Shown: positions 21,051 to 64,000 of the stretch, one piece after another
How positions within the stretch are numbered: position 1 is the stretch's first letter
Layout: each line of letters opens with the position of its first letter
Source: Lunularia cruciata
Lineage: Eukaryota > Streptophyta > Marchantiopsida > Lunulariales > Lunulariaceae
Length of the DNA: 64,000 bases
Reading direction: 5' to 3'
NCBI GenBank assembly: GCA_948567375.1
Contig: OX419757.1
Location: 15,266,974 to 15,330,973 of the forward strand
The notes under the pieces: model-generated
What the model was told of the DNA's origin: nothing
The model's input: the letters and a program-made list of their open reading frames with translations, nothing else
Database searches by the model: none
Position numbers and translations under genes: made by a program

Positions 21051-21055
21051 CTGGT

Positions 21056-29014: not shown

Positions 29015-29018
<4 letters not shown>

Positions 29019-29083
<65 letters not shown>
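29019..29083. repeat. (AT)n microsatellite
   Basis: About 64 bp of almost uninterrupted AT dinucleotides. The open reading frame across it (Tyr-Ile repeats) is an artefact of the microsatellite. Confidence 0.97.
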
Positions 29084-29090
<7 letters not shown>

Positions 29091-31164: not shown

Positions 31165-31168
31165 TACC
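31165..31168 (-). other. Target-site duplication (GGTA on minus strand), outer end of M2
   Basis: Immediately after the terminal CGACA of M2 read on the minus strand. Identical to 14795-14798 beside P. Confidence 0.7.
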
Positions 31169-31273
31169 TGTCGTGCGTATATACATCACTACACAACATA
31201 CATCACTGTCAACATCATACACTATAGAAGCACAACTCACACATAAGTCATACATAGACTCTAAAGTGCCACA
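31169..31273 (-). repeat. Terminal module A of M2
   Basis: 105 bp from TGTGGCACTTTAGAGTC to CGCACGACA on the minus strand. It is preceded by GATTAT of module B and followed at once by flanking DNA. Confidence 0.9.
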
Positions 31274-31637
31274 ATAATCAGATTGCTTAACACTTTCAAC
31301 TCAACTCAACTCAAATCAGTACTTGATCTATCACTCTATAAATTGCCAACAATTGGGCACTGATTGCAGTCAAGCCACACCCACTCAAGCATAGAGAATC
31401 CAGGTGACACTCGCCAGCCTCTGTCCACCATAGCCAGGAACTCAAAGGCTCAACATCAGAGAAGTGAGCTCTCTAGAGCTCACTTTGAAACTATACCCCC
31501 CTGGACTCGAGCTAGCACTGGAACCCTAACGGTCCCACTGACGGCACACTCGACGGTGCAAACGGTGCAAAGTGACAGTGGGCCCCACCGTGAAGTCAGT
31601 ACCCCGAACACCAAATCAGACTATCGGAAAGTAGTCC
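31274..31637 (-). repeat. 5'-truncated module B in M2
   Basis: Matches the last 360 bp or so of module B. The join to upstream leader sequence shares the bases GGAC between leader and B, a microhomology typical of template switching or deletion. Confidence 0.82.
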
Positions 31638-31905
31638 TGCCTTCACCTTCACTCTGGTCCTGCCTTCACCTCCTGAGCTCAAAATCACAACACTGCTCAA
31701 AAATTTCTCCTTCTTTGCTCAAAATTTGGCCAGCACTTCCGCACACCATCCGCCTAACTGCCAAATCTGCATCAACTGAACAAGCTTTTGCACACTAGGG
31801 AAACACAAAACTTGAATCAAGCTACCACGATCCACTGAGCTTGGAGATACCACCAACACTCAACGTTCCTGCACCCGATTTCCCCTTGACTTCACTTCTC
31901 TGATG
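31638..31905 (-). repeat. Extra copy of the element leader between two B modules of M2
   Basis: Minus-strand CATCAGAGAAGTGAAGTC and the following sequence correspond to 15249-15500 of P. Near 31636-31671 a GGTGAAGGCAGGAC phrase is doubled. Confidence 0.85.
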
Positions 31906-32355
31906 TAATCAGATTGCTTAACACTTTCAACTCAACTCAACTCAGATCAGTACTTGATCTATCACTCTATAAACTGCCAACAACTGGGCACTGATTACAG
32001 TCAAGCCACACCCACTCAAGCATAGAGAATCCAGGTGATACTCGCCGGCCTCTGTCCACCATAGCCAAGAACTCGAAGGCTCAACATCAGAGAAGTGAGC
32101 TCTCTGGAGCTCACTTCAAAACTATACCCCCTTGGACTTGAGCTAGCACTGCAACCCTAACGGTCCCGCTGACAGCACACTCAACGGTGCAAACGGTGCA
32201 AAGTGACGGTGGGCCCCACCGTGAAGTCAATACCCCAAACACCAAATCAGACTATCGGAAAGTAGTCCCTGAGAAACTACTAGAATAACTCTAACTACTA
32301 TCATTGGAACTCTAGTGTCCGAGCAGCTAGATGCGGAACTACAAATGGCGTGACA
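31906..32355 (-). repeat. Complete module B of M2
   Basis: 450 bp from TGTCACGCC to CTGATTA on the minus strand, very close to the P copy. The bases GT separate it from the preceding module A. Confidence 0.9.
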
Positions 32356-32462
32356 ACTGTCGTGCGTATATACATCGCTACACAACATACATTGCTGTCA
32401 ACATCATACACTATAGAAGCACAACTCACACATAAGTCATACATAGACTCTAAAGTGCCACA
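32356..32462 (-). repeat. Module A of M2 next to the polypurine tract
   Basis: Starts TGTGGCAC directly after CTAGGGGGGCGAT on the minus strand, so plus-strand synthesis would be expected to start at this A module. Ends CGACAGT before module B. Confidence 0.9.
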
Positions 32463-32475
32463 ATCGCCCCCCTAG
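32463..32475 (-). other. M2 polypurine tract
   Basis: Minus-strand GGGGGGCGAT abuts module A. M1 has the related GAGGGGCAAT at the same place. Confidence 0.75.
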
Positions 32476-32631
32476 CTGGCGGTTAGGTCCCTCTAACTCC
32501 AGATAGCCATCTACTCTAAGTATATGGTATACCCTCTAATGGGCAAAGATCAAGAGGCCGGGTGCTATGGAGCCCCATCGTTAGTCGCCTTTCTGCAATT
32601 TATACCATATAAAGAATGAACTAGCTATAGG

Positions 32632-32931
32632 TCAAGTACATCTAGGACATAACCACTGTCCCTGAGGAACCACCGTTAGGGGAGGAGTCATACATGCCAT
32701 ATGCCATCCTCTCGAACAGCTATCACACACTAACATAGTAGCAGCTCCACCAGAAGAGCCACATAACATACACCTCAAGCCTGCACGTACAAGTGCCAAG
32801 CTTGGGTCCATAGTACCATCAATGTTTGGGAGGTGGCATGGCGAACAAATGCGCACATGATCCTTCCAAACAACACCATCACGTCCTTCTAACACAAGGA
32901 CTCCAGATGGCAAAACCTCGCGCACTCTCAA
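32632..32931 (-). pseudogene. PHD finger at the end of the M2 polyprotein
   Basis: The 99-residue open stretch begins with the integrase C-terminal tail (EVLPSGVLVLEGRDGVVWKDH) and ends in a C4HC3 zinc finger: CMLC, then VCDSC, GWHMAC and LCPRC. The His and the Trp two residues before the last Cys pair are in place (GQWLCPRC). PHD fingers read histone H3 tails. The position after the integrase is that of the chromodomain in chromoviruses, so I infer a targeting role. The stop follows directly, so this is the end of the polyprotein. M1 has the same finger with a one-base deletion. Confidence 0.9.
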
Positions 32932-33303
32932 GATAGTGCGGCCTGTAGAAACATCAAGTGTCGTCGGTGCTGTCTGCTGTAGATATACATAGTCACCTGG
33001 ATGAAATCAACGGATTGAGGGTCTATAACCTCCTCCTTGAATGGTAGCATAGCGTAAAGTATCTCTATGCTAAGCAATTGCCAAGTTCTCAAAGGCCATC
33101 GACATCACTCTCCAAAAGATCTCTGCCCGCTGAGAACATGCGCTCATCTATACATTGGGGTCATCCAAGTCCAAAACTATAGTAACATCTCGACGAATGG
33201 CTGCAGGTAAATCTGGATCTCGTCCATAGAGTAGAAAGTATGGAGAGAAGGATGCTAAGGAGGCTTGCCGGCTGAACCGATAGCCCATGGCCAACCAAGG
33301 TAA

Positions 33304-33590
33304 CTAGAGATCCCAATCTCCCAAGTAGCCTCTTTGCAAACCATACTTTTGCAATCCTCTCTTCACCGTCTGAACCACTCTCTCTGCTAAGCCATCTGCC
33401 TCAGGGTGATCTCGGGATGTAGTACGATGATCAATCAAAGCCTTGTCACACAAGACCTGAAACTCTCCCAAGAACTCTGTACCCTGATCAGTCAAAACCT
33501 CAGCTGGTGCACCAAAATGACTAAGAACTCGATCCAGGAACGAGTAAGCTATCCCTTCACTAGACTTGTCAGGAAGTGCCACCAACCAAG
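33304..33590 (-). pseudogene. M2 integrase catalytic core, second half
   Basis: Open stretch of 93 residues with VLTDQGTEFLGEF (second catalytic Asp) and RDHPEADGLAERVVQ (catalytic Glu, about 34-35 residues later), the standard DDE integrase core of Ty3/gypsy. The first Asp block is missing because similarity to M1 stops at about 33590, beside unrelated DNA. Between 33304 and 32931 the integrase C-terminal region continues in changing frames. Confidence 0.92.
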
Positions 33591-33808
33591 TCCTTCATCC
33601 CTTGCAAGTAATAGAATACTTGCTTCAGTCTCTTCCAATGCAAAATACATAGATGAATCATGTATTGAGCAAAATTATAACAAGAAAATGAAATATCATA
33701 CCTTGTACCGTTTGCTCATTACAATAAAGAACCAATGACCTTTTGGTAAAGTTTCACTCCATCTATGTTGTCATAAAATTAAGTTAAGGGGATACCTTGC
33801 CTTAGCCT

Positions 33809-43198: not shown

Positions 43199-43202
43199 GC
43201 TC
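43199..43202 (+). other. Target-site duplication GCTC, left of M1
   Basis: Identical to 55990-55993 at the right end of M1. Confidence 0.85.
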
Positions 43203-43307
43203 TATTGTGCATATATACATCACTACACAACATACACCATTGTCAACATCACACACTGTAGAAGCACAACTCACACATAAGTCATACATGGACTCTAAAG
43301 TGCCACA
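43203..43307 (-). repeat. Terminal module A of M1
   Basis: 105 bp from TGTGGCACTTTAG to GCACAATA (GCACGACA in M2). It directly follows GCTTAT of module B and is directly followed by the target duplication. Confidence 0.9.
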
Positions 43308-43753
43308 ATAAGCAGTTTGGTTACACAACTCAAATCACACTCAATCAGATCAGTATTTGATCTGTCACTCAATGATCTGCCAACAATTGAGCACTTATTA
43401 CAGTCAAGCCACACCCACTCTAGCTAAGAGACTATGGTGATGCCCGCCGGCTTTCTGTCCACTCTAGCCAAGAACTTGAAGGCTCAACAATAGAGAGGTG
43501 AGCTCTCTAGAGCTGCACTCCCAGGGTATACTTCTGATTGACCTAGGTCTCACACCAACAGTCCCTCTAATGGGACACCCAATGATGCAAACGGTGCAAG
43601 TGATAGTGAGCGCCACCATGTAGTCAATACCCAAAACACAAAATCTGATTTACAAAAAGTAGTCTCTAAGTAACTGCCAAAATACCTCTGACTACTATCA
43701 TTACTACTCTAGTGTTTGAGCAATCTAGATGCAAAGCTACAAATGGTGTGACA
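43308..43753 (-). repeat. 3' module B of M1
   Basis: 446 bp from TGTCACACC on the minus strand, lying between two A modules. Homologous to 55547-55989 and to the B modules of P and M2. Confidence 0.9.
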
Positions 43754-43860
43754 ATTTTTGTGCGTATATACCTCGCTACACGACATACATCATTGTCAAC
43801 ATCACACTCTATAGAAGCACAACTCGCATATAAGTCATACATGGACTCTAAAGTGCCACA
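43754..43860 (-). repeat. Module A of M1 next to the polypurine tract
   Basis: 107 bp starting TGTGGCAC after the purine run GAGGGGCAAT (43861-43870). It ends CGCACAAAAAT before module B. Confidence 0.9.
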
Positions 43861-44110
43861 ATTGCCCCTCTAGCTAGCGGTTAGGTCCCTCTAGCTCCAG
43901 ATAGCCATCTACTCTAAGTATATGGTATACCCTATGGTGGGCAAAAGATCAAGAGGCCAGGTGCTATCGAGCCCCATTGTTAGTTGCCTATCTACAATGT
44001 ATACCATATGAAGGATGAACTAGCTATAGGTCAAATACATTTAGGACATAACCATTGTCCTTGAAGAACCATCATGAGGGGAGGAGTCATACATACCACA
44101 TGCCATCCCT

Positions 44111-44326
44111 TCAAACAACTATCACATACTTAGTAGCAACTCCACCAGAAGAGCCACATAACATACACCTCAAGCCTGCACTTACAAGTGCCAAGCTTGG
44201 GTCCATAATACCATCAATGTTTGGGAGGTGGCATGGCGTACAATTGCGCATATGATCCTTCCAAACAATACCATCATGTCCTTCCAACATAAGGACTCTA
44301 GATGGCAAAACCTTGCCCACTCTCAA
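44111..44326 (-). pseudogene. M1 PHD finger, frameshifted
   Basis: Very similar to the M2 finger through LRCMLCGSSGG, after which a small deletion shifts the frame. The remaining Cys/His codons are still found downstream in another frame (44110-44050). The tail before it (HLPNIDGIMDPSLAL) matches M2. This confirms that the finger belongs to the family. Confidence 0.85.
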
Positions 44327-44558
44327 GATAGTGTGGCATGTAGAAACATCAAGTGTTGTTGGTGCTATCTACTATAGATATACATAGTCACATGGATGAA
44401 ATTGACGGATCAAGGATCTATAACCTCCTCCTCATCAAATGGTAGCATAAAGTAAGGTATCCCTATGTTGAGCAATTGCCAAGTTCTCAAAAGCCATTGG
44501 CATAACTCTTCAAAAGATCTCTGCCCATTGAAAACATGCGCTCACTCATATATCTGGA

Positions 44559-45370
44559 TCATCCAAGTCCAAGACTATAGTAGCATCTTGATGAATGGTT
44601 GTAGGTAAATCTGGATCTTGTCCAGAGAGTAGAAAGTAAGGAGAGAAGGATGCTAAGGATGCTTGCCGCTTGAACTGATAGCCCAATCAAGGTAATTAGA
44701 GATCCCAATCTCCCAAGTGGCCTCTCTACAAACCATACTTTTGCAATCCTCTCTTCACTGTTTGAACCACTCTCTTTGCTAAGCCATCTACCAAGGTGAT
44801 CTTGAGAGGTAGTACAATGATCAATCAAAGCCTTGTCACACAAGACTTGAAACTCCCTCAAGAACTTTGTACCCTGATCAGTCAAAACCTCAATTGGTGC
44901 ACCAAAATGACTGAGAACCCAATCCCAGAACAAATAAGCCGTCCCTTCACAAGACTTGTCAAGATGTGCCACTAACTCAGTCCACTTGGAGAAGGGCTCC
45001 ACCATCACTAAAACATATCAATGATGTCTCATAATCAAAGGTAAAGGTCCAACAAAGTCCAAACTCCAATGGTAATCCAATCCCATGATAGGTAATGGGT
45101 GTAACTATGGTGTAGGAGCATTGAATGATGCTCTAGCTTGATCACAAACCACACATATGGCAACAAACTATTGTACATCGGTCTACATACCGCACCACCA
45201 ATAATGAATCTAGAGTAAGCTATATGTATGCTTTACTCCAAAAGGTCCTAGCTCCTCATGAGCATGACATACCAACTATAGTCTCTAAGATGGAAGTGCT
45301 AAAACTCTCACTCTACCATCCTCACATACATGCAAAAGGTGTCTACTCTCCAATCTGAACTGCCTAGCTT
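44559..45370 (-). pseudogene. M1 integrase
   Basis: Contains the FSKWTELVAHLDKS block continuous across the point where P and M2 are broken, then VLTDQGTKFLREF with the second Asp (Glu of TEF changed to Lys), and a DHCTTSQDHL stretch with a frameshift before the catalytic Glu. The HHCC region lies near 45200-45350. Confidence 0.88.
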
Positions 45371-45659
45371 GCTGAAGGACACAACCTCTCTCCTTGGCCC
45401 CAATTGTGCCACCCACAACACCAATGCAAAGATAGTCCACCACTAAGACATCATCATGAATATCTTGCTGAACTATACCACTATCTCCTCTCTCTCTCTA
45501 GATTTGTGACCTCAATAACTCCTCTTGTATGCACTAAGAGAGATACCACCAAAGCCTTAGAAAATATACAGAGAAAGGCAGATGCATGCCAACCTGGCAT
45601 CATCTCCTCATCTGTTTCACCATGCCAACATACTCTAGTCTGATCTTGCTAGTTGGGAC

Positions 45660-46250
45660 ATGGGTTTCTACTCAACCCATCTGTGTCACGATTTACCACT
45701 CTAAGTCTATGAATAATTGTGAAATCATACCCCTATAAAATCAAAGCCCATCGTCCAAGCTTCCCTAAAAGATTGTTGGACTCCATCAACTACTTTAGTG
45801 GCTGATGATCAATGATGAGAGTAAAGTGGTTACCAAATAGGTAACATTGGAAATGTGCTACTGCCCAAACTACTACAAAGCACTCCCCCTCATATGAACT
45901 ATACTTTGCCTCTGCTGAATTATTGGAGCGACTAGCATAGGCTACCACAAACTCCTTCTCCTCATCATCATGTTGGGTAAGCACTACTCCAAGCTCCAAC
46001 ATACTCCAATCAGTGTGAACTTGAAATGGTCATCCTTTGATTGATCTCCTCAAAATAGGAGTAGATGTCAACTTCTCCTTGAGCTCTACAAAAGCTCTCT
46101 CTACTCATCTTCCCAACACCACTTTTGTGTAATCTTGGTCAGCTTCATCAAGGCCCTAGCAATGGCACTAAATCCTCTAACATAGTGGAGATAGAAGTTT
46201 GCTAACCCAAGGAATGCTTGCACTATGCTCACATCCATAGGTCAAGGAAT
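45660..46250 (-). pseudogene. M1 RNase H
   Basis: VVLTQHDDEEKEFVVAYASRSNN, YSSYEGECFVVVWAV and LIIDHQPLK are open at 45790-46002. The upstream connection domain (FLGLANFYLHYVRG-like) lies at about 46150-46220. At the site where P has TAG in LT*HDD, M1 reads CAA. Confidence 0.9.
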
Positions 46251-46299
46251 ATGTGCAATAACCTCCACCTTGGTCTGTTGAACACCAAGTCCTCCAAGG

Positions 46300-46725
46300 T
46301 AGATAGTGTGACCCAAATATTCAACTTGCTCATGGAAGAACTTACACTTCCCATATGTAATTTGAGTCCATGAGATCTCAATCTCTCAAACACCTCCAAC
46401 AACTATCTCTCATGCTCCTCCATAGTAGTGCTAAAGACCAAAATACCATCAATATAGCACCAAGCAAAATCCAATCCAGCTAGGATCCTATTCATGACCC
46501 TTTGGAACTCAACAAGACCATTCTTTAACCCAAATGGTAAGAACCTCTACTGACGTAACACATCCTTGTCGTGAAGATCAATAGCCCAGAATGATGTCTT
46601 GGACTTATCCTCCTCTATGATCGGCAACTAATGATATCTTGCTTAAAGATCCAAAGTACTAAAGACCTATGCATGCCCGATTGCATCAAAGATCTAATGT
46701 CATGCCCCCGAATACTAGAGTTCCC
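46300..46725 (-). pseudogene. M1 reverse transcriptase
   Basis: Recognisable by alignment to P: LPFGLK region near 46530, and the catalytic box at about 46440-46455, which reads YIDG in place of YIDD, removing the second catalytic Asp. Many stops. Confidence 0.82.
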
Positions 46726-46989
46726 AACCTTTGTGTGAAAAGCTCCCTCCACTTTGGCTACAAGCTAGACCACACGTCCTCTAGTAGCATCCTAAGCAAA
46801 CCAAGGGTGTAATCCAAGTAGCCCATGCTCACTTGGATGGACTCTCAGTAGACCACTCTCCCTAGTAGCTAATTGTTGTGTCCCAAGAATACTATGTTCA
46901 CTTGGTCCATCACCTCCAACATGTGCCTAAATTGTCTCAATAGGTACAAGGCTCACAAGTGTTTGAGTGGTGATGCCTATCAAGCGCAT

Positions 46990-48180
46990 CCTACACTACT
47001 TTGCCAAGCCAAAGCTCAAACAGTTCAGGTCCATAGCCTAATCTAACACTTGACGCCTGGATACTTTTGACATTGTTGGAACAATGGTAATACTAGTGCA
47101 AAAACCCATTGCCCACTCTTTTTCATCCGCACTAGGCTCCACCAACTATTGTAACTATGAGTCCCAAACAAGTCCAAGACCTCCCTCTCAAAAAGCATGA
47201 GAACTTGGGAAACTCATAAGTGTAGGAGAAGCGGCTCTAGGCTGCCCAACTAAGTTCACCACTACCATAGGTGACCTATCAGCCACTACCACTGTTTGAG
47301 ACTGACGCCCAACATCCAAGATGTCATCAACAATGATGTGGTCTAGTCGCTGAATCCCGTTGTAAGCACACTATAGAACCTCTCTAGGTAAGAGGTTCAT
47401 CTACCAAAGACAAAGACGATGAACCCGTGATCCCACTATGGCTGGATCTATCAATATAGCAGGTCCTATCCAAGAATGGACCTGATGTGTACTCACCACC
47501 ACTCTGGTATGAGAATCACCTATCAATGGAACATTCTCCAAAATGTAAGTGGGAGAAATGGACTGATGAACCTAGAGATGTTATGGTATCCATAACATCT
47601 CCCAAAACACACCAAAACAAGGATCCTAAAGACCCAAACCTTGGCCAACACATGTATGTCTCTAACATGACCATCCAGAAATCACCAAATGAACAAGTCC
47701 ATGTCGCTCTAGATCATGTGCTCCTAGTAAGGAAATGTTTACTAGTAGGGCCTTTGGGTAACCCCTGATTGCTGACATCGATAATAACTCAAGATACCAA
47801 TAGTCCAAGTGTGCCATATGATGGATCAAGACTCGCCTAGCAGTCTCATCTCTCTCCATATACCAGTACCTCTATACTCATATACCTACTTGTAATACCG
47901 CAACTAGTCCAGTGCTAATCCCACCAAACAACTCCAATAGATATACTCCCTCTATTAGATATTGCCAAGCAATGAATGTGGTATCTAGAGGTGTCAAGGT
48001 AATCAAATCTAGAGGCTCATCCTCACATTGGTCTCATGGTGGTATAAAGGCTCCACTCTAAGCCTACTACACCAATTGATCTGCTTGCTACTACAATGCC
48101 TCCTCTGAACTCTACAAAGAAATATCCAAGGTGGATGGAACAATCCCACTTGTACTCCAAATCCAAGTGATCTCCTTTGG
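46990..48180 (-). pseudogene. M1 C5-cytosine methyltransferase domain
   Basis: Same motif order as in P. Motif I region (ELFGGIS) lies at about 47920-47940, followed by the MERDETARRVLIHHMAHL block. Motif IV reads SGWSC then TAG (about 47660-47685), so the catalytic tripeptide PCQ has become SC-stop. ENV-type motif VI lies near 47530-47545, motif IX near 47100-47130 and motif X near 47005-47045. The stop that P has after YRYPE is absent here: M1 reads straight through (YLELLSMSAIRGYPKALL), which shows that the intact frame was continuous. Confidence 0.9.
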
Positions 48181-48279
48181 TATTGGAGTATCCTTTGCAT
48201 GGGTGTTCCCCTCCAATAACTCACCAAGCCAAGTAATAGAATCACTAAAAGTTGAAACTAAAGCCGCCATGGTCACGGA

Positions 48280-49020
48280 CTATAGTGAGCCAAGACTGCT
48301 ACTACTGAAGCATACTAGCAGGCAACATACTCGTCCCTCACCAGACTGCCAACCTGATCTATAAGAGGATGTCTCCTCCCAACAGTCGATATTAAAACCA
48401 ATGGGGTATAATAATACTGCTCTCTCAACTAGCACATCATATAACTCAACTATTGTTGCAATAGCCTGAGCTCTCACCATTGAGCTATCAGTCAAGTGAC
48501 CAGGCTGAACATGGACAACAAGCTCCCCTTGTGTGATGTATTGTGATGAACCACCACCTAGAGATTTCCAGATCTGAAACGGACACCTCTCTACATTGGT
48601 CTTCCATAACTCTAGACCAACAATTGCAGCCTTTCCCAACATAAGCGATTGTGCACTAAAGTCTAATAAGACTCTCTATGGTGTATAGACTTTCCCTGAA
48701 GGTCCTACCAAACAAAAAATCCCCCTTTGGTTATCCAATAAAACAACACCAAGTGTGAACCGCACTCTCTCAAAGGCCGGTCTAGCTGGCAACTCCTCCA
48801 ATCTAGCCGCTACTACATGCCATAAACCATTGGTTGTTAAGCGGATCCCATGTTCCTCAACCAAGTCAGCTCCACTATCAACCACCTTTGCTCCAATAGT
48901 AGGAACCACATCATCACAACTCTCACAAAGCATGGTAGCCAATCTGAACATTAGGGCTGGGTCAACTCCCAATGTGCACATGTCATTGGCTGAAAATAAA
49001 AGATAGTGCATAGTCAACTA
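48280..49020 (-). pseudogene. M1 protease and preceding linker
   Basis: The segment with LARPAFERVRFTLGVVLLDNQRGIF (48676-49017) precedes the active-site loop, here VLLDFSA at about 48655-48680 instead of DSGA, so Ser-Gly of the catalytic loop is lost. Then LGKAAIVGLELWKTNVERCPFQIW, where P has a TAG after CPF. Confidence 0.82.
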
Positions 49021-50685
49021 AGCCGCTCCCAACATTGTGCTAGACTCAATCTGTGTGGTAGCAAGTAGCTGACTAGTAGGTAGTCCATCATGCAGTCCAT
49101 CATGCACCCCATCACCACCTACCACACCTGCACTAGGACATTTAGGAGCCATAGATGATGCCTGTGGAGCCTCAAAGAGAGTGAAAGGCTAGGGAAGTCT
49201 GACCTATCTTCCAACCTCTCCTCTCTATGGGTCCAACTCCACTGATGCTCCTCTAGGCTCTATAGCATGTATTGCACTCCTAGTCATTGCTATAGATGCA
49301 TCTACTTGTGCTACTCCGTGCATAAAGTCCAAAACATCTCTATCACCAGCATATGAGGTGGAAGCCTCAGCACTCGAATCTAATCTCCTCTAAGCAATGG
49401 CCATACTAGCCAAGCTTTACTCCAACTGCTCAATTGGAGTAGTCATGGCTATATCAAAAGTAAGGGCATGTACTGCACCTCTACCAGGTGTGGATCCTCT
49501 ACCACTTCGTCCTCCATGAACTAGGGCTCCTTTACTACCTGCCATAGTAGCCTTACAACTCCATAACTCCGAGTGTAGGTCAAAGCATCGGTCACTAGAG
49601 TGACCATATCTATGACAACGCTCACACTATCTCTATGCTGGCTGTGATGCACTAGAGGTATAAGGTCCATTGCCCTAAGTGCACTCTCTCTTGTGATGAG
49701 GTCCACCACAAGTCCAACAAGCAACAACACTACTCACTAGCTGTCGTTGACCCAAAAATGAAGGTAAGGGTCTAACTACAATAGGCCCTCCACTCACTCC
49801 ATAGGACCTAGGCTGTCCACCCTATCCTCAAAAGCCAACTAGATGTGGTGCACTTTGCTGCACTCTAGAAGAAGTCACAGTTGTGGATGAGGTCTTCCTA
49901 CCAAATCCAAATGTCACCACTCTCTCTTCCACCATATTGAGCTCAACATGCTCAACCAAACCAAAGACCACTGCCAAAGTGGGTGAAGTAGCCTATAACA
50001 ACGTAGCATCACAAACTCTACTTCATAACTCCCTTTCCAATATTTTGTACCAAAATTGGACTGCTTGGGCCTCAATAACTCCTTGAGTGAAACTGATCAT
50101 CCGCCTCATGTGAGTGTATGAATTGCGTACGCTCTTTCCAACGCTAGAACTCCTACAAGCTCCTCAACTTGTCAGTATGCACTCTCTAGTAATTATGCCT
50201 CAAACACTAGAAGAACTCCACCATAGGGTTAACCCTTGGTACCACACCACCTCCTATAGTGGTACCTCCACTCGTAGTAGCAAAATCTCCAGCTAGTGCA
50301 CCTCCACTAGCTCCACTAGCTCCACCAATGCTACTTGAGCTAGAACTTGTCTGATACTGCCGATCTACTCTTGGCAACTACGCTTGAAGTGATAGAGATA
50401 TAGTTCAAAGACCAATATTGTCTTCATAACTCAATCTCCTCCATATGAGCTCTCTTGAACTCATGGTAATTGTAGATTAGTGGACCGTCCAAACGTTGAA
50501 ACAAGTCCTTCCATGCCATGAAGAATGTATACAAAGTTGGGTTCTGCATCTACCACAGATCACACTAATTATCAAACTATTGGATGAAGTTATCCAACTC
50601 AATGGTACTCATTATATTAGAGTAATGCCTAGGGCCTTTGGAGGCCCCATAAATCTTGTCTATGTCCCACAACAATAGTGCGGAC
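49020..50685 (-). pseudogene. M1 gag, zinc knuckles and capsid
   Basis: The CWTCGGPHHKREC-type knuckle lies at about 49680-49720 and the second knuckle at about 49580-49640. The capsid segment with MKQ/WKDLFQRL-like sequence lies near 50490-50520. Several stops. Two of them (TAG near 50550 and near 50146) coincide with TAG codons at 16893 and 17290 of P. L2 splits the N-terminal part, which resumes at 51374-51550. Confidence 0.82.
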
Positions 50686-51373
50686 TATAACACCCATTTG
50701 TGCATGTGTGTGGTATTGTAATATTTAGATTGGTATAACAAGTACTTGAGAGGTATTATTTATATAGATAAAGGATGGTTCTACATTTTTCATGATTAGT
50801 TGAAGTTAATCATAGCTAAGATAGAAGGGACCTTACTTTAGAGAAAGTGGAAAAGATGAGCACCACTATTTTGGATTCTAATGTGTTAACTTGGTATTAT
50901 TCCTAGGTGTTTGTCTTTGAGGAAAGAATTAAGAACTCTTGGGCTTGCAAGCCTTTTTGTTTTGGATTCTTCTATAGTCCAAGGATAGCCCATGTGAAGG
51001 AATCCTTGACTTAGTTTTTGGGTCAAGATAAGATCACATACTTAGTGGAATATGCCCATGTGGATGAATATTCCTTTATACATTTTGACTTTACTTGACT
51101 TTTAGCCTAGTAACTTGAGTTACTTTGGTAAATAGTAGCTTTAGTGCAACTACTTCACAAGTATATAAACAAGGGATGAGGAGATACTCATCATCTTTTC
51201 ATTTGCAACTATCTCTCTCTCATTGAGTTCTCTAGTGAGCAATGTCTTGAGTCTTGGAGTGTTAGCCTTCGAGGAGTATGATGGAGTTGGGGTTCTTTGC
51301 CTTCTTAGTCCATGGTGCATTACCATAATAGCCATCAAAGGTTCATCTTGAATGAGAGACAGGCCGACTCACA
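50686..51373 (+). repeat. Solo LTR L2 inserted in M1 gag
   Basis: 688 bp, same family as L1 and L3 but more diverged from them. Comparison with uninterrupted P shows that the bases GAC of the target are present on both sides (left GGAC, right TGAC), a short duplication. M1 homology resumes exactly after CTCACAT. Confidence 0.87.
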
Positions 51374-51550
51374 TGACACACCAAGTGCACTCTCAATTGA
51401 ATCAGCTCTTGGGTCAAACTCTAACTCAGAGTCAATCTCCTCCCTCATTGGGACATGAGATACAAGCTCATACCGAGCACCACTCCAATTAAACCCACCA
51501 TGTACTATAAAGTTATCTCCTCTAGAATCCTAAAATAACTCCATTGTGAC

Positions 51551-54500
51551 AAGTAATCGCTGTCGAGGGGATCGGATGGTCTCAAGAGTGCGCCGGGCAC
51601 CTAGCTGCTCATGCTTAGGTTATCCTATTCACTGAAGAGTTAGAAGTTCCCTTGCAGTTTATCGCAGGCTTTGTTCTTTCATATGATTGCAGTTTCCTCC
51701 ATGTAATAGAGCAGCTGCCTATAGTTGCTCCTATCTGCATGCTCTTCTTAGGACTGTTTGGTAGGATTTCTTGGGTTAACGCTGAACCTAATGTATCACT
51801 ACAGCGTGTTCATGTTTGTTAAGCTTTGGGTTGAGGTTTATGGCTCTGGTGGGGTCTGTTTGGCAGGTCACAAGGTATGGCTAGACCCAATCCAGGCAAA
51901 TAGATCAATGCTTTGAGCTGGCTACACATACCGAACTAGAAGCCGAGAATGAAGTCCTTCTTCATGGCCCTATTCATAATTCTCAAATACAACATTCATC
52001 CATGAGAATCGCACAGCTTTCAACACACCCTCATCTCACTATTTACAAATCCACTTGGGAAATAATCAGTTCCAAGTAACACACTAAACTCACCTAAGTC
52101 ACCTATGACTGTCAAATAAGCAAAAGGAAGGAACAATAACAGCCAAATTCAAAGTTGGTCTCCAACATGTTCTCTCTCACTTGCATGTTAATTCAAAGCA
52201 GTCCAACTGTGAACAATTTCTCTATTCCTCTACCACATCAAGGTCTAAGGGTCTTGTCGCAGTCAATGTCTATAGCTCAGATTGGAGACAATGCATAAGC
52301 TTTTGTCACAGCAAAGTCCAAGCTCCTGACGTACCCAGATCTCCGCTCAGGCCAGACCAAACCTGCTTTAGGGATTTCTCCTTCTCTTACCTCTCTGCCC
52401 AGCCAAATGCAACTCTGAGTTGTCTTCTCTTCATCCCATGCTGGTCACTTCTCTACGGGGCAAAACTCCTGAACCATGAACTCCTTCCCCTTTGTTTCCT
52501 TCGTGAGAGTTTCCTTTTGCAACTCCTGCAGCCTACCCTTTAGACCTGCAAAAATTCCCTTTCCAATTCTGTCCTTCAACACTCTATCAACATTTTTACA
52601 CAGAAATCTCTCTTCTCCAGTCCTGTTCTCACATTTGTGAGAGTTTCCTTTTGCTACTCCTGCAGCCTGCACTTCAGACCTGCAAAAATTTCTCTTCTCC
52701 CAAGCACTTCTTCTCCTGCACATTGTTCATTCCTTCAAGAAGAAACACTTCTCTCCCCTGCACTCTCAAGCCCTAACAGTCCTTGCGAAAACTTTCTCTG
52801 CTCCCCAAGCACTTCCTTTCTTGCACATTTTTCATTCCTTTGAGAAGAAACACTTTCTCTCCCCTGCACTCTCAAGCCCCAACAGTCCCTGTGAAAACTT
52901 TCTCTTCTCCCCAAGCACTTCCTTTCTAGCATATTGTTCATTCCTTTGAGAAGAAACACTTTCTCTCCCCTGCACTCTCAAGCACTAACAATCCTTGCAA
53001 AAAATTTCTCTTCTCCCCAAGCACTTCCTTTCCAACACATTGTTCATTCCTTCAAGAAGAAAACCTTTCTCTCTCTTGCACTCTCAAGCCCTAACAGTCC
53101 TTGCAAAAATTGCACTCTCCTGTCCAAGCACTTCCTCTCCTGCACATTGTTCATTCCTTCGAAAGGTAAACCTTTCTCTCCCCTGCACTCTCAAGCACTA
53201 ACAGTCCCTGCAAAAATTGCACTCTCCTGTCCAAGCACTTCTTCTCCTGCACATTGTTCATTCCTTTGAGAGAAAACCCTTTTTCTCCCCTGCACTCTCA
53301 AGCACTAATAGTCCCTGCGAAAATTGCACTCTCCTGTCCCAACACTTCCTCTCCTGCACATTGCTCATTCCTTCAAGAGAAAACCCTTTTTCTCCCCTGC
53401 ACTCTCAAGCACTAATAGTCCCTACGAAAATTGCTCTTCTGTCCCAGCACTTCCTCTCTTGCACATTGTTCATTCCTTTGAGAGAAAACCTTTCTCTCCC
53501 CTGCACTCTCAAGCCCTAACAATCCCTGCAAAAATTGCACTCTCTTGTCCAAGCACTTCCTCTCCTGCACATTGTTCATTCCTTTGAGAGAAAACCCTTT
53601 CTCTCCCCTGCACTCTCAAGCACTAACAGTCCTTGCAAAAATTGCACTCTCCTGTCCAAGCACTTCCTCTCCTGCACATTGTTCATTCCTTTGAGAGAAA
53701 AACCTTTCTCTCCCCTACACTCTCAAGCACTAACAGTCCATGCGAAAATTGCACTCTCCTGTCCAAGCACTTCCTCTCTTGCACATTGTTCATTCCTTTG
53801 AGAGAAAACCCTTTTTCTCCCCTGCACTCTCAAGCACTAATAGTCCCTGCAAAAATTGCACTCTCCTGTCCCAGCACTTCCTCTCCTGCACATTGTTCAT
53901 TCCTTCAAGAGAAAACCCTTTTTCTCCCCTGCACTCTCAAGCACTAACAGTCCCTGTGAAAATTGCTCTTCTGTCCCAACACTTCCTCTCCTGCACATTG
54001 TTCATTCCTTCGAGAGAAAACCTTTCTCTCCCTTGCACTCTCAAGCCCTAACAGTCCCTGCAAAAATTGCACTCTCTTGTCCAAGCACTTCCTCTCTAGC
54101 ACATTGTTCATTCCTTCAAGAGAAAACCCTTTCTCTCCCCTGCACTCTCAAGCACTAACAGTCCTTGCAAAAATTGCACTCTACTGTCCAAGCATTTCCT
54201 CTCCTGCACATTGTTCATTCCTTTGAGAGAAAAACCTTTTTCTCCCTTGCACTCTCAAGCACTAACAGTCCATGCTAAAATTTTCTCTTCCCCCAAGCCT
54301 TTCATTGTCACAACTCCTCTAAAGCCTCCCAAGTATTTCCAACTCTAAGACTCCTTTTTGCTCCTCCTCTAAGGCAAATACTCTTTCATTCCAATAACAT
54401 AAAACAGAACCTGAGCTAGTGTAACCCCACATTATTTCTTGGCTCAAGCCACATTAAAAGACTCCTTGAGCTAATAACACCATAAATTTTGTTGGCTTCA

Positions 54501-54653
54501 CAATAATATAGGAATTATCTTCTGTAGCAAGGTAGCATAAAACTATACGTGAGACATATTGACATAAATCCATGTTCCTTACAACAACTAGAAGAGAAAA
54601 AGAAAATTTATCACACCAAAAGCCTCAAGGGTACACGTGGGCTATTTTCCCGA
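51551..54653. mobile_element. 3.1-kb insert of unknown class in M1
   Basis: Comparison with P (16560-16620) shows that M1 is interrupted after TGAC (51547-51550) and resumes with TGAC at 54654-54657, so 51551-54653 is an insertion with a probable 4-bp duplication. Its ends (AAGTAATCGC and TTTTCCCGA) are neither TG/CA nor an evident inverted repeat. The left 1 kb (51551-52500) is unique-looking. The right part is a satellite array. No coding domain is seen. Confidence 0.7.
52497..54300. repeat. Satellite array, about 106-bp units
   Basis: From about 52700 some fifteen copies recur at 102-107 bp. Landmarks per unit: TGCACATTGTTCATTCCTT, GAGAGAAAACC, 'CTCCCCTGCACTCTCAAGC' and CAAGCACTTCCTC. The plus strand is pyrimidine-rich and has few stops, giving long overlapping open frames. 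The unit length is not a multiple of three and the same peptide appears in rotating frames, so I judge it non-coding. A related larger duplication precedes it at 52497-52690. Confidence 0.93.
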
Positions 54654-54659
54654 TGACAC

Positions 54660-55546
54660 CGCCAACCGCCAACAACAAACTGCAAGTACCCCACCAAGTG
54701 GCAACACCACCAACCAAGCACCACCAAGTGCCAACCCTAATAGAACACTTCCCTTTAATGTAACTCTAGTTGAGGTAACTGCACTAGGGGAATGGGTGAC
54801 CTGTAACCTACCATCACAACATGCACTCTCACGGTCTGCATGTCATCACTTCTTGCTTCACCAAAGAGAAACATAGATAGTTTGATTGGTCATCACTCCA
54901 GCCTTACTATCAAGAGCACACCAAAGCACCAATGCTCTAAATTCAGGGCACCTCACACAAACACGGTGCACAAATAGGAAGTAGAGAATGGAGAGGGTCC
55001 AATCACAAGAAGGCTAAATAAAATCTTTCCTTCTCATAAAGCAACACCGGATTGACTATACCACCATTTGGCATTTGATATAATCGGAGTACTTATCTAC
55101 TTCTTGAGTTATGAGGATCACCAAAGAATGGGATCAAAGTTCTCTTTGCCAAAATCTGACATAAACCCTTTGCAAAATTAGACATAAATCCCTAAATTTG
55201 TCTGACCACTAAATCTTCTACTAACTCTTGACTCGAGCTAAATTGGAAAATTTGGTTTAGTCCAATCTCTAATTCATGAGAGTGGGTTCCCAACTCCACC
55301 TCAATTTCACTTTTGGAGCTCAATTGACGCTAAATTGATCTTGTGTTCAAATCCTGAGCTCAAAATCACAACTAATGCTTGAAATCAACTCTCTCTAGCT
55401 CCAAATTTGGCCAGCGCTTCCGCACACAATCACTTCCAAGGAAATCAGAACTACGATCAAGGTACCACTATCCACCAAGCTTGGAGATGCAATCACCACC
55501 CTTAGTTCTTGCATCCAATTTTTGCCTAACTCTCACTTCTCTATTG
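54660..55546 (-). other. M1 leader
   Basis: Aligns with 15249-16560 of P in inverse order, with conserved phrases such as ATGGGATCAAAG and GCTTCCGCACAC. The part next to module B begins CAATAGAGAAGTGAGAG on the minus strand. Non-coding. Confidence 0.75.
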
Positions 55547-55989
55547 TAATCAACTCAAATCACACTCAATTAGATCAGTACTTGGTCTGTCACTCAATGA
55601 TCTGCCAAAAATTGGGCACTAATTACAGTCAAGCCACACCCACTCTAGCTAAGAGACTTGAAGTGACGCTCACCGGCTTTCTGTCCATTCTAGCCAAGAA
55701 CTCAAAGGCTCAACAATAAAGAAGTGAGCTCTCTGGAGTTGCACTCCCAAGGTATACTCCTGATTTTGACCTACGTCTCACACCAATGGTCCCACTGATG
55801 GCACACCTAACGATACAAACGGTGCAAGTGATAATAGGACACCATGTAATCAGTACCCAAAACACAAAATCTGACTAATTGAAAGTAATCTATGAGTAAT
55901 TGCCAAAATACCTCTAACTACTATCACTACTACTCACTACTACTCTAGTGTCCAAGCAATCTAGATGCAAAGCTAGAAATGGAGTGATA
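55547..55989 (-). repeat. 5' module B of M1
   Basis: About 443 bp, starting TATCACTCC (TGTCACGCC in P) and ending TTGATTA before the leader. No module A lies outside it: copia sequence and the GCTC duplication begin at 55990. Confidence 0.88.
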
Positions 55990-55993
55990 GCTC
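55990..55993 (+). other. Target-site duplication GCTC, right of M1
   Basis: Matches 43199-43202. Confidence 0.85.
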
Positions 55994-57720
55994 CTCTCTT
56001 AGCATACCAAACATCATTGTCTAGATGATTGATACTTGTAGTAGTGCTTAAACTAGCAATAAATGCAATACTTGGTGTTGTTAGAGCATTGGATTTACTT
56101 CTAGGATTAGCTATATTATATGGCTTTCTTCTTGGTTTTGCTTACCTTTGCATTCTCTTGCCCAATGCACCTTCTTTCCACATTTTTTATAGCTTGTTCT
56201 CTTCTTTAATTCAAAGATGCCGATCTTCTTTTGAGTCCCATGATTGTTACTACCTCTAATGCTTCTTCTATAGATAGTAGGAAATGCTCTCTCAATTGAA
56301 CTCTCTTCTCCACATGTGTTCAAGTTTCTTCCTTGAGCAGTCTTCTAGTGAGTCTCTTGATAATTTGCTTTGTAACACCCATTTGTGCATGTGTGTGGTA
56401 TTGTGATATTTAGCTTGTTATTATAAGTACTTAAGAGATATTATTTATATAGAGATAAAGGATGGTTCTATATTAGTCATGGTTAGCTAAAGTTAATCAT
56501 AGCTAAGATAGAGGGGACCTTACTTTAGAGGAAGTAGAAAAGATGAGCACCACTATTTTGGATTTTAGTGTGTTGACTTGGTATTATTCCTAGGTGTTTG
56601 GCTTGGAGGAAAGAGTTGAGAACTCTTGGGCCCGCAAGCCTTTTTGTTTTGGATTCTTCTTTAGTCCAAGGATAGCCCATGTGAAGGAATCCTTGACTTA
56701 GTGGTTGGGTCAAGATAAGACCACATGCTTAGGGTAATATGCCTATATGAATGGATATTCCTTTCTACTTTTTGACTTTTCTTGACTTTTAGTCTAGTAA
56801 CTTGAGTTACTATGATAATTAGTAACTTTGGTACGTAACTATTTCACAAGTATATAAACAAGGGGTGAGGAGGTACTCATCATCCTTTCATTTGCAACTA
56901 TCTCTCTCTCATTGAGTTCTCTAGTGAGCAATGTCTTGAGTCTTGGAGTGTTAGCCTTGGAGGAGTATGATGGAGTTCGGGTTCCTTGCCTTCTTAGTCC
57001 ATGGTGCGCTACCATAATAGCCATCAGAGGTTCATCCTGAGTGAGAGACAGGCCGGCTCACAGCTTCTCCTCAAGTATAGTATCCCATGCAGTTATTTTA
57101 TGGTGATAAGTTTATGGTAAACTATGAATAATCCTGGTGATGATAGAGGAATCATCTATTCTAACACCAAGGTTACTTAATTGACTAGAGAGAGTTTATA
57201 CTTGGCTAATAAGACCCTTTATTTCTTCTCCCAATTTCATTTACATTTGAAATTTGAAAGAATCTCTGTTAGAGAAAGTCCTTGTTCTCTAAAGCATATT
57301 GCTTGTGTAACGCAATCAATATACTACACATCTTGTTTGTAATTTTACAATTGAACAGTCTATGTAAATACTTCTCTTCTATGGCTACACATAAGTACAT
57401 TTATGCAACATCATTCTTTCTATGCCAATTGGTCTCTTCTCCATTTGCTATAGATTGTTTTGTAGTTACTATCCCGTCAACGATCCCTTTAAGTCTCTTT
57501 AAATTGAAGATGATCATCATCTAGAATTTCCAAATCAAGAAATTCTTTCCATTGAATTGATTAATGTGTGCTATATCTCTCACATCACTCCTTGTTCACA
57601 ATGTGTCCCAATCTACTCTCCTATCTAAAAGGTCTCTTCTAGTTTCTCAATGTCTTTGAAATCTTATGACAAGAGTAATCTTCTATCACTCTTGATATAC
57701 TTGGGAAACTTGTACCCATA
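55994..57720 (-). pseudogene. C2 gag, interrupted by L3
   Basis: A knuckle-like block, YKKCGKKVHWAREC, with the first Cys lost, lies at about 56135-56180, followed by a Lys-rich tail. Gag sequence continues right of L3 (57063-57720), again only in fragments. It borders the M1 insertion on its left. Confidence 0.75.
56371..57062 (+). repeat. Solo LTR L3 inserted in C2 gag
   Basis: 692 bp from TGTAACACCC to GGCTCACA, flanked on both sides by GCTT, a perfect 4-bp duplication. Nearly identical to L1, so the two are recent relative to their hosts. TATA-like box near 56850. Confidence 0.9.
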
Positions 57721-57723
57721 ACT

Positions 57724-58162
57724 TGTTGAAAATCATCATAAACATCGATGCAAATCTATACAGCATTTATAACAGACAAGGAACTCAAAAAGGTATACAA
57801 AGCATTTCTGCAGATTTTATGTTATTGCAAATGTAACCGCATGAAATGAAGAATGGAATACCTACACCCTCGTATGTAGACTTTAAGCTAATGAAAACTT
57901 GTGTTGTCTGGCCTTGCTTCTCCAAACTGCTACTCACACATCCTACCACAAAAGCTATTTAACTATGTTGGTAGCATCTTGATGGAATGAACTACTTGCT
58001 CTCTCAAAGATAAGACCTAAATACTTTAACATTAATGCTGCTGTGGTGCTAGGTGCAATATACAAACCCTAACACCTATAGTATAGATACATGCTATATC
58101 AATACACATGTATAGTATAGATACACGCTATATCAATACACATGGACTGCCATGGACTACCA
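57724..58162 (-). repeat. C2 5' LTR
   Basis: Homologous to 39581-40001. It contains a small internal tandem duplication (ATAGTATAGATACA/CGCTATATCAATACACATG, 58077-58142) not present in the other LTR. Confidence 0.8.
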
Positions 58163-60140
58163 ATACTTTCAACTCAAGAGGAAACATAACAAGATTCTGG
58201 TATTTGCCGGGAACAGTTTCACCGGAAGCATTCCTATCTCATTAGTGAACTGCTCGAGGTTGCAGAAAGTAGGCCTGTCTAGAAACAACTTCATAGTCCA
58301 CGCACCATCAGAACTGGGCACTTCTGAAGTATTTGAGATTCATCTCTTTGGAGGTAACTTAATAAACTTACAGGTAAATTTCCGTCTCACACGGGAGCTG
58401 CTCCAGTTGGGGACGATTATCTTAGCCAACTACAGCTTCATGGAACACATTCCATCCCATCTAGGATATTTGAAAAGAGTTTTAGCCTTGTCATTGTGAC
58501 GAAATACTCTTATAAGCAACATTCTGATAGCGTTGGAAAATTGCTCCCAGTTGAATCTGCTTGATCTGTCGAAGAACAAGATCGGCCACGGACCAGCACA
58601 GCACAGCACAGTGTCAGTTTGAAGGAGCTGACGTGCTTATCCTTGGAAAATATACTTCAAGGGAGCATTCGTGCTTTACTAGGAAACTATTCAAAGTTTG
58701 GAGCGCCTTGATTTGTCTCATAACAAATTCACAGAACCCCTACCATCTGAACTTTGTAAATTGGAGAAATTGATCGACTTGTCCGTTGTTGGCAGGAGCA
58801 TTGCCGTCATAACCTGGCAAGCCAAAGGGGTTAATGTCTTTGTTGGTGTCTGTGAATGGTCTGCCAGGCAGCATTCCTGACTAATTGGGGAACTTTACAA
58901 AGTTAGAGATCCTCAACTTCGCCCACAACAAATTTACAGGAACATGCCATCAGCACTGGAACTTTGAAGGAGTTGATGCTGCTGTCAGTCTATACTAATT
59001 TACTTACAGGCAGCATTCCTGAGTCCTTGGTGAACTGCACCAATTTAGAGACGCTTGACTTCTCCCACAACAGACTTACAGCACTTGCCTTCAGAGCTTG
59101 GAAATTTGAAGAGGTTGATGCAGCGTCGGTGTATAATGATTCACTAGCAGGGAGGATTCCTTCTCCATTGGGGAAGTGCACCAAGCTGCAGTCTGAAGGA
59201 TTCGGTGAAAGAAAATACTCTTACAGTTTCTGGTAACATTCCTTCTTCATTGTAATTGATAAACTCCCCACACTTAGATCACTTTGATTGATCTTAAGGA
59301 CACATGCACCCTGAACTTGGTAGTGTAGAACAACTGACATCTTTGTGTATTACTAGCAACAACGATTTGACACGACCATCGGCTGAGCAACTTGGCAATG
59401 CGGAGAAGTTGCCGTCCTTGTTGGTGTCCTGAAGCAACCTATCAGATAGAATTCCTCAATCCATTCGGAAACAGCTCCAGGTTAGAGGAACTGAATTTCG
59501 CCAATAAGAGCTTTACAGGGCAGGTGACACCATAGCTTGGAAATGTAAGGAGTTCGATTGTGCTATTGTTGTGGGGAATTCACTTGCAGGCAATTTTCCT
59601 GCTTACTGGGAAGATGCACCAAGCTGCAGAAGCTTGACCTTTCTAAAAACAACTTCGTACGCCAGATTACGTCACAGCTGGGTCTTTTTGTGTGAACCAG
59701 AATACATTTACAGGCACCATTCCTGATTCACTGGGAAACTGCTCCCGGCTAGAGACTGTGGACTTCTCTGGCAACCACTTCACTGGAAGTACACCGCCAC
59801 AGGTGGACGATTCCTGGTACGCGAGAGAACAACTTCACAGGCAACACTCCCGAGAGCGTGTGCAGATGCTCAAAGACAAAAACGCTTTATTTGGGTGGTA
59901 ATCAACTCGAAGGAGATGTGCAACATGTATGGGCAACCTGTCACATCTTTATCTTCTTGACATCGCAGGCAACAGAATTCAAGGACAGATACCAGGTAGC
60001 TCTGAGCAGCTTCGGTTGTTGTAAGGACCCTGATTTAGTGTCAAACAATTCTCCAGCTCAATTCCTGAGTCCCTCGAAAATCATTCGTAGGTACAACAAC
60101 AATCCCTCCTGGACGAAAATCAACTGTCTGGCATAATCCC
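58150..60140 (+). pseudogene. LRR receptor-like pseudogene
   Basis: At least ten plant-type extracellular leucine-rich repeats (consensus L-x-x-L-x-L-x-x-N-x-x-x-G-x-I-P-x-x-L-G-N) occur in sequence, such as FTGSIPISLVNCSRLQ, NLLTGSIPESLVNCTNLETLDFSHN and FTGTIPDSLGNCSRLETVDFSGNHFTGS. Frameshifts or stops interrupt nearly every second repeat. No transmembrane segment or kinase domain was found downstream, so either it is truncated or those parts are lost. The DNA keeps more CG dinucleotides than the neighbouring transposons. C2 lies directly at its left edge. Confidence 0.85.
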
Positions 60141-62024: not shown

Positions 62025-64000
62025 TGTTACTACATTTACAACGACGAAGCTAGTTTGTTCATACGTTGGAGTGATAGTTTTGGCAGTTAGAGTTATATTA
62101 GTAGTTGCTCAAAGACTACTTAGTGGTGGCCAGGTATTGTGTTAGGACTATTGATCACATCATTGGACCTACCATCACTTGCATCATTTGTATTGTCAAA
62201 TGGGCCATCATCAACACATTTAGGGCTAGAGACCCAAGTTGAATAGAAAAGTTTACCTTCAAAATGTAGCTCCAATGAGCTCACTTCTTTGATATTTAGC
62301 CTTTGAGTTCTTGACTATGGTGGACAAAGGCCAGCAAGCATCACCTAGAGTCTCTTAGCTAGAGTGATTGTAGCATAATTGTAATCAATTCCTATTGTAG
62401 ATTGAGTTCTAATCCGAGTTGAGTGTGAATTGAATTGATAACATCGGAGAACTAAGGTCAAGGAGAAATTGGGTGCAAGAATTGAAGGCATTGGTGGTAT
62501 CTCCAAGCTTGGTGAGATTGTTGGTATCTATGGTCTCAAGTTTTCTTTTAGTTGTGTGGATTGGGTGAAAAAGCCATGCTTGATTTGTTGCAAATTTGAC
62601 AACAAGATAGATGATGTGTTGTAATACTCCGAGGACAAGAGAAGAGAGAAAACAAGATTACACACTCAACATTTGGTGCCCCAAAGGAGCACCTTCTCTT
62701 TATTATATAGACAAAGAGGATCTCTTCCAAGGAAGCTCCACCATAGGATTAGGCACATAGATAGGTGACATGTCAGCAAGCTCCACCCTTGGATTACTTA
62801 CTTGGATGGATGACATGTCAGTCTAGGTCCTATCTAGTTGGTCAAGCAAGCTTTCAACGGAGGAAATCTTTTAGAGAATCTTCATGTAGGAGTCTCAGAA
62901 TCACGTAAGGTACCATTAGAAAGCTCTCCATGAAAAAAACCAAGGGGGAAGAAAGGCAAGCCTTTCCTCAATTGGGGGGAATCTTTATATTTTCAAGGCC
63001 TAATTCATCCGTTTAGGCCTTCAAAATTGCCTTCAAAGATTTTAGGCATATTTTGGTTCCTACTCTATTAGTAGAAGTCCCCTTTTGGTGATACCCTTCT
63101 GATCTGTTTAGTCCATCATGTGTAACATCCTTCTAGATGTTATCAAACCAATTCTATGTCTAGCTATTGGTTCTAAGGTTCTCAAGTCTATTTTGGTTTC
63201 TGCTCTATTAGTAGAAGTACTCTTTTGGTGATACTTCTATCTGATCTATTTTGACCATCATGTATAACATCATTCTAGATGTTACCAAACCGAATTTCAC
63301 ATCTAGATCATATGGCTAGATCTTGGTATTACATGTGCAAAAGTACTAGCCAAATTTCTCAATATTGAATCACTTTGAGACAAAGAATGTTTCGATTTGA
63401 GTCCAAGGAGGTGAATCAAGGTAGATTTTATGAAAATCAAGCCCAATGTGAAAAATTTGAGAACCCATCTACTTGAATTAGGGATTTGGACGTTGCTTGG
63501 GTCTTCTTGAATTACCCTAACTAGTGCTCAAGTTGGTGGAGGTTAACCAAATTTGGAGAGGGTTCAAATTGGCAAGAAGAAATGTCTTATTTGGTTGAAT
63601 TTTAGTGTTTAAACTTAAAGGCAGATTTGAGAACCCATCTCCCAAATTAGGGATTTGAATTTTGCATGAATTGCCTTAGTTAGTTATTGAGTTGGTGGAG
63701 GTTAGCCAGATTTGGAGAGGGTTCAAATTGGCAAGAAGAAATGCCTCATTTGGCTAATTTTTGATGTTTAGAGGCTTCAAGGCATAGGGTTATGGCTAGA
63801 GAGGCTAGCAAACTAGCCAATTTAGTTAAGTTTTTGGTAGTTGTATGGCAAGATCTATCCATCCTCAAGATTGTGTGCAACAGGGTTTGAACCCTAGATC
63901 TCTTGTTCTTAGACTAGTGCCTTAGCCAATTTGTCCATCTTCACTTACAGTCCTAATGATTGGTAGACTAACATGTAGCTTTGGCTAGGAGAGAACTCTT
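62025..64000 (+). mobile_element. M5: 5' end of a further M-family element
   Basis: Module B (62025-62440, start TGTTACTAC, diverged) is followed by leader sequence that matches P: GGGTGCAAGAATTGAAGG, GGTATCTCCAAGCT, then after a solo LTR the parts equivalent to 15420-16110, ending at the window edge with CATGTAGCTTTGGCTAGGAGAG. Coding parts lie outside the window. As in P and M1, B is not preceded by module A. Confidence 0.8.
62620..63333 (+). repeat. Solo LTR in the M5 leader
   Basis: 714 bp with 8-bp terminal inverted repeats TGTAATAC/GTATTACA. Flanks TGTGT and TGTGC fit a 5-bp duplication with one change; the uninterrupted P sequence has GGTGTGCGG at this point. It contains a TATA-like box (near 62700) and two tandem units of about 122 bp (63048-63170 and 63183-63303) around CTCTATTAGTAGAAGT and TTTTGGTGATAC. 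Different family from L1-L3. Confidence 0.85.

Follow-up and report, generated by a model that had tools for sequence, protein, structure and literature searches.

Architecture of the Two Insertions

The window, i.e., the whole stretch of 64,000 nucleotides of Lunularia cruciata DNA analyzed here, holds an element which, judged by its coding content, is a Ty3/Gypsy retrotransposon with a DNMT3-like methyltransferase, a DDE integrase, and a PHD finger; the evidence base of this work, all within the window, consists of two full insertions plus an additional left and an additional right end. The first full copy, M1, lies on the minus strand, and self-comparison of the window together with direct reading gave the order B1, leader, internal region, polypurine tract, A2, B2, A3. 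Module B1 (55547–55989) forms the integrated 5′ end and starts with TATCACTCC, a decayed TGTCACGCC; the leader and internal region (43862–55532) end in the polypurine tract and are followed by A2 (43756–43861), B2 (43309–43753), and A3 (43203–43308), which provides the integrated 3′ end GCACAATA. Decayed methylase, RT, RNase H, and integrase regions and a PHD remnant make up the internal region. The preliminary description of this DNA had fixed both ends of M1 by a 4-bp duplication inside a copia element, and this reading holds: direct reading and joining of the flanks place GAGC at 55990–55993 on the 5′ side and at 43199–43202 on the 3′ side, both on the minus strand, and the two flanks in the host copia, minus one GAGC, are continuous in a single frame of 111 codons. 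Both flanks were chosen as open stretches, and for stretches so preselected one in three pairs would agree in frame by chance; the joined copia flanks thus support an empty site for M1, short of proof.

The leader of M1 contains a tandem array of ≈ 107-bp units (52700–54371), for which self-comparison of the window found no counterpart in P, the 5′ part of the second insertion. The same comparison revealed a 690-bp repeat in three copies, at 3373–4062, at 50688–51373 inside M1, and at 56373–57062, which probably derive from a copia family as its solo or terminal repeats; a small offset scan around the copy inside M1 detected no duplication of 5–6 bp.

The second insertion has been inverted apart into P (14799–22931, plus strand) and M2 (33593–31165, minus strand), which are complementary parts of one element. 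P begins with module B1 (14799–15248), starting TGTCACGCC, and continues through leader, gag-like region, DNMT, RT, RNase H, and the first part of the integrase (15263–22931) up to the inversion breakpoint. M2 holds the remaining integrase, the PHD finger, a 3′ non-coding stretch, and the polypurine tract (32464–33593), followed by A2 (32358–32463), B2 with ≈ 250 nt of leader (31655–32355), a partial B that sets in near B position 90 (31275–31638), which is joined to A3 at 31266–31281, and A3 itself (31169–31274), forming the integrated 3′ end CGCACGACA. The 3′ repeat of M2 (31169–32355, minus strand) is hence irregular, reading A-gt-B, ≈ 250 nt of leader including a copy of the primer binding site (PBS; 31892–31905), partial B, and A. 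Open reading frame 2 (ORF2) of a diverged relative, L001, maps with residues 7–722 to P and with residues 716–1030 to M2; comparison with M1 shows that the two breakpoints abut within ≈ 2 bases; and GGTA flanks both outer ends, at 14795–14798 (plus strand, 5′ side) and 31165–31168 (minus strand, 3′ side). From this complementary coverage, the abutting breakpoints, and the shared duplication it follows that P and M2 represent a single second insertion, not two copies. The breakpoints themselves, 22931 and 33593, lie inside the integrase gene; a TA-repeat palindrome was noted at 29004–29089.

Two partial copies, both on the plus strand, complete the inventory. M5 (62033–62544) consists of a decayed B1 and the start of the leader, its beginning at ≈ 62033 having been placed by eye and its blastn match running from 62268, and a fragment at 6119–6273 comprises the final ≈ 48 nt of B, followed by A3, and ends with CGCACGATA. 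Left ends start with B in 3/3 cases seen (M1, P, and M5, the last placed by eye), right ends terminate in A in 3/3 (M1, M2, and the 6119 fragment), 4-bp target duplications (GAGC, GGTA) are present in both testable insertions, and both full copies have B at the left and A-B-A at the right. The layout B-internal-A-B-A flanked by 4 bp is thus confirmed in two independent insertions. Of the recurrence of these ends in further copies, as claimed earlier, the starts of P and M5 with B and the termination of M2 in A stand, with P and M2 now counted as one copy. No copy of the form A-B-internal-A-B was found by self-comparison of the window. The reading of the element as one with an ordinary LTR of composition B-A was ruled out by M1, P, and M5, where B1 has no A following it. 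Between M1 and M5, open pieces at 58116–60133 (plus strand) resemble, by eye, a decayed leucine-rich-repeat gene.

Coding Content and Relatives

Pfam searches with pieces of the window identified RT (4.2e-26), RNase H (1.9e-27), a PHD finger (9e-12), a C-5 DNA methylase piece in P (7.2e-5), and the integrase core in M1 (2.6e-7) and M2 (5.8e-6), with the two integrase pieces scoring 31.3 and 26.9 bits against the curated cut-off of 32.6 bits, which is exceeded by L001. This relative (contig CADCWO010000201.1) is a Gypsy-DNMT3-PHD element of eukaryotic type that was deposited as part of a cyanobacterial metagenome-assembled genome, which holds other Gypsy-like contigs too; it is 63% identical to the window element in the PHD region. 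Its two open frames contain a DNA methylase (6.8e-12), RT, RNase H, H2C2, the integrase core (1.1e-13), and PHD (4.3e-10), next to a protease match that is weak and falls below the cut-off (7.8e-4). Among solved (PDB) structures, DNMT3A/3B came out best with the methylase piece of L001 (6e-8), and the integrases of Ty3 and foamy virus did so with the integrase piece. The order RT-RNase H-integrase with a DDE integrase is that of Ty3/Gypsy LTR retrotransposons, and no tyrosine recombinase was detected by Pfam in the 20 pieces of the window that were scanned at E values up to 1, or in the two ORFs of L001 (E up to 0.01). The earlier assignment of a split-direct-repeat element with DDE integrase was borne out by self-comparison, direct reading, and Pfam.

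Relatives of the PHD part, among the best 120 of 212, include proteins from Marchantia, Calypogeia, and Sphagnum. For ORF2, with 8000 candidates scored, the best 120 of 1599 include proteins from Calypogeia, Riccia, Marchantia, Closterium, Klebsormidium, and Haematococcus; an arachnid and a plant of the daisy family are represented as well, by generic Gypsy proteins. Judged from these relatives, the host of the element is probably a bryophyte-like plant. In viral contigs, no relatives were found with one query or with two L001 pieces; 18 loci returned there by a second query, with 26–29% identity over ≈ 90–100 integrase residues, were judged unrelated and left out of every count. On the DNA level, a 38-nt non-coding stretch at 32555–32591 (minus strand), located between the PHD stop codon and the polypurine tract, is 89% identical to L001 6749–6786, among the highest DNA identities between the two elements.

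Repeat Boundaries and Predicted Self-Priming

Immediately downstream of B in P, a stretch of 14 nt (15249–15262) is perfectly complementary, at 14/14 positions, to an arm inside B (15056–15069), a match reached by 0/2000 letter shuffles and 0/2000 dinucleotide shuffles. The corresponding site of M1 directly after B1 (55533–55546) carries two changes relative to P, which are mirrored by partner changes in the arm (55714–55727), such that pairing is preserved; after one further change per B copy, 13 Watson-Crick pairs and one G-T pair are left with B1, and 13/14 with B2. The longest exact match of M1 is 10, and 40/2000 shuffles get there, which was counted against the reading favored below. The site after B is predicted to be a self-priming PBS, and the arm of M1 would mark the RNA 5′ end. 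A box at 55751–55757, GTATACC, which we take to be TATA-like, lies 30 nt above the arm of M1, and its counterpart in P is GTATAG at 15027; such GTATAG/GTATAC boxes occur 29–30 nt above the arm in P, in M2, in both M1 copies, and in L001. In L001, the box lies 30 nt above a 13-nt primer arm of its own, and a PBS is present; its arms at 7239 and 7415 have 13 exact bases in common, reached by 0/2000 shuffles, a post hoc control on arms picked by scanning (7 inverted pairs).

A tRNA-type PBS was sought with four motifs typical of tRNA priming against the leaders of M1, P, and L001; the best fits had 2–5 mismatches in 12–14 positions, and none was at a repeat end, so that a PBS of this type is not proposed. 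Likewise, TGGTGGCAGAGTCAGTCC near 16179 was ruled out as a PBS, as it adjoins no repeat end.

By sequence, PBS and polypurine tract are thus located where the internal region meets the repeats. Since the polypurine tract immediately precedes A and the self-priming site directly follows B, the repeat of reverse transcription is A-gt-B; the preliminary description had expected A-B repeats from a polypurine tract against A and a leader after B, and the positions of PBS, arm, and polypurine tract agree. The A-gt-B repeat starts with TTG in the window and in L001, and ends with GATTA in P and M2, not with CA.

Joints and the Putative Integrase Site

The integrated outer ends are the two halves of the palindrome GACA-gt-TGTC, which is internal to the repeat. 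In M2, it is found at the A2/B2 joint (32352–32361, minus strand), so that the GT reported there between A and B could be verified, and it is considered the candidate integrase site. L001 also has a polypurine tract, a 105-nt A, and CACGACA-gc-TGTCACG. The inner B-A joint, located at 43300–43315 in M1, reads CTGATTA-TTGTGGCAC in M2 and CTGCTTA-TTGTGGCAC in M1, and it corresponds to the end of an A-gt-B repeat joined to the start of another, without loss. Counted on the negative side were one extra base at the B-A joint of the 6119 fragment, the decay of the GACA half at the inner A/B joint of M1, and an unrelated GACA-NN-TGTCA in the window at 9171.

Comparison of the modules gave 377/435 and 437/456 identical positions for B1 versus B2 within elements, and 74–79% for B between elements (333/436 to 346/441 in full-length comparisons), the likeness within and the lower values between elements being as predicted by strand transfer of the LTR type. 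For module A, A3 of M1 matches A3 of M2 at 104/113 positions and its own A2 at 98/111, which, if anything, favors inheritance of A3 by copying and was counted against the reading favored below; A3 of M2 is about equally near to both (105/113, 104/113).

A Proposed Permuted Intermediate and Its Alternatives

We favor, with reasonable though limited confidence, LTR-type self-primed copying with A-gt-B repeats, followed by integration that looks as though it had started from a permuted DNA, in the simplest case a circle with two repeats. The RNA would start in B1 at the primer arm and end in or after B2, and its folded 5′ end would prime minus-strand synthesis. The ends of the resulting linear A-B-internal-A-B cDNA would then be joined to each other to give the putative two-repeat circle, or some other permuted intermediate would be opened at the internal site. 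The DDE integrase would cut GACA-gY-TGTC in the 5′ repeat, with loss of the 2-nt spacer, and insert B-internal-A-B-A. Exactly this order results if A-B-internal-A-B is closed end to end and then cut at the site within its 5′ repeat, and the inserted product retains the TATA-like box, the start site, and both copies of B, so that recopying is possible in principle. A permuted or circular intermediate, as envisaged in the preliminary description, is supported and has gained in strength through the self-priming site and the B-A joint; the circle as such stays putative. Counted against the opening of a circle are the irregular 3′ repeat of M2 and the mirror isomer B-A-B-internal-A, which would be expected if either site of the circle were cut and is absent from the window. 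On the supporting side, the L001 contig is circular as assembled, with a 127-bp end overlap and a single A-B, and 0/5 other Gypsy-bearing contigs tested in its assembly, mostly shorter pieces and thus a weak control, are circular end to end; the circularity of L001 may represent assembly-graph collapse of the repeats. Whether a streptophyte Gypsy lineage uses a retroviral-type DDE integrase to insert circular cDNA by cutting palindromic GACA-gY-TGTC sites inside the repeats, and not at the cDNA ends, we regard as an evenly balanced question.

A rather unlikely alternative is a DIRS/PAT-like route, in which the full RNA including A3 would be copied, the inner A2-gt-B2 would splint A3 to B1 into a circle, and the DDE integrase would open the new joint. 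The order of the repeats is the same as in split-direct-repeat elements according to the available text of PMC4157794 and PMC3266345, the B-A joint is near-constant, and A3 of M1 is nearest to A3 of M2, all as such splinting would have it. The similarity of B1 and B2 within elements speaks against it, as does the coincidence of the repeat boundaries with polypurine tract and self-priming site, which is explained by LTR-type transfer and not needed for a splint. An identical integrated product would arise, without any circle, if linear concatemers or strand-displaced cDNA were cut at GACA-gY-TGTC sites within them; this route is decidedly improbable, with two cuts required at a spacing of exactly one unit plus one repeat, and with no multimers seen in self-comparison of the window. 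That ordinary A-B-internal-A-B copies were rarely rearranged, as the restriction to two full copies in one window might suggest, is scarcely credible in view of two independent insertions with common ends, joint, and 4-bp duplication, the internal palindrome kept in L001, and a charophyte Gypsy-Dnmt3 described with the same repeat order in the available text of PMC5890265.

The favored reading, self-primed LTR-type copying followed by integration from permuted DNA, would, if true, separate the end of reverse transcription from the start of integration, two points that the usual account of LTR elements treats as one, and it would provide an example from nature of a DDE integrase integrating at a circle joint. 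In the retrovirus literature of the 1980s, the palindromic joint of the two-LTR circle was held to be the integrase substrate, a model since abandoned for retroviruses. The palindromic substrate is the likeness to the element discussed here; the difference is that the candidate site in the window lies within the repeat and away from the ends of the cDNA.

Relation to Known Elements

Target duplications of plant Ty3/Gypsy elements comprise 4 or 5 bp, according to the passages available from PMC6317226. The 4-bp duplication in the window matches Ty3/Gypsy LTR retrotransposons; the lack of an identical full repeat at both integrated ends does not. Self-priming is known from Tf1/sushi and Tcn1, described in the same passages as Gypsy chromoviruses with ordinary LTRs; the likeness is a primer site complementary to the element itself and not to a tRNA, here judged by complementarity, whereas the window element differs in its permuted ends and in having PHD instead of a C-terminal chromodomain. 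With PAT/Ngaro elements of DIRS order it shares the split direct repeats and the internal copy of the joined ends; according to the available parts of PMC4157794 and PMC3266345, however, those elements employ a tyrosine recombinase, and the integration model for DIRS1-like elements involves no target duplication, in contrast to the DDE integrase and 4-bp duplication found here. This comparison points to two unrelated recombinases as able to give rise to split direct repeats.

The layout had been introduced as one not known before, a claim which has to be withdrawn: the legend to Fig. 4 of de Mendoza et al. (2018, PMC5890265) already attributes the repeat structure of DIRS elements, together with typical Gypsy domains, to KnitGypsy-Dnmt3 of Klebsormidium nitens, and split direct repeats in a Gypsy element with DDE integrase are not unprecedented. 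In the literature searched, which consisted largely of open-access passages, this is the only such element, none being described in the portions available of PMC8775202, PMC11673190, PMC12477816, PMC4157794, PMC3266345, and PMC6317226. The window element agrees with the text of the legend in its Gypsy domains, the DNMT3-like domain in Pol, and the DIRS-like repeat order; as for KnitGypsy-Dnmt3 itself, the accessible text of PMC5890265 describes neither its ends and target duplications nor an integrase site, a primer, or a mechanism, and the term PHD is absent from the main text. The insertions analyzed here make the unexplained remark of 2018 on DIRS-like repeats in a Gypsy testable. Three K. 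nitens proteins were found among the best 120 of 1599 relatives of L001 ORF2, to which they are 46–48% identical over ≈ 70% of its length; neither a methylase nor PHD is listed for them, and assigning them to KnitGypsy-Dnmt3 would be conjectural. The putative kinship of the window element with KnitGypsy-Dnmt3 is thus based on domain make-up and the described layout.
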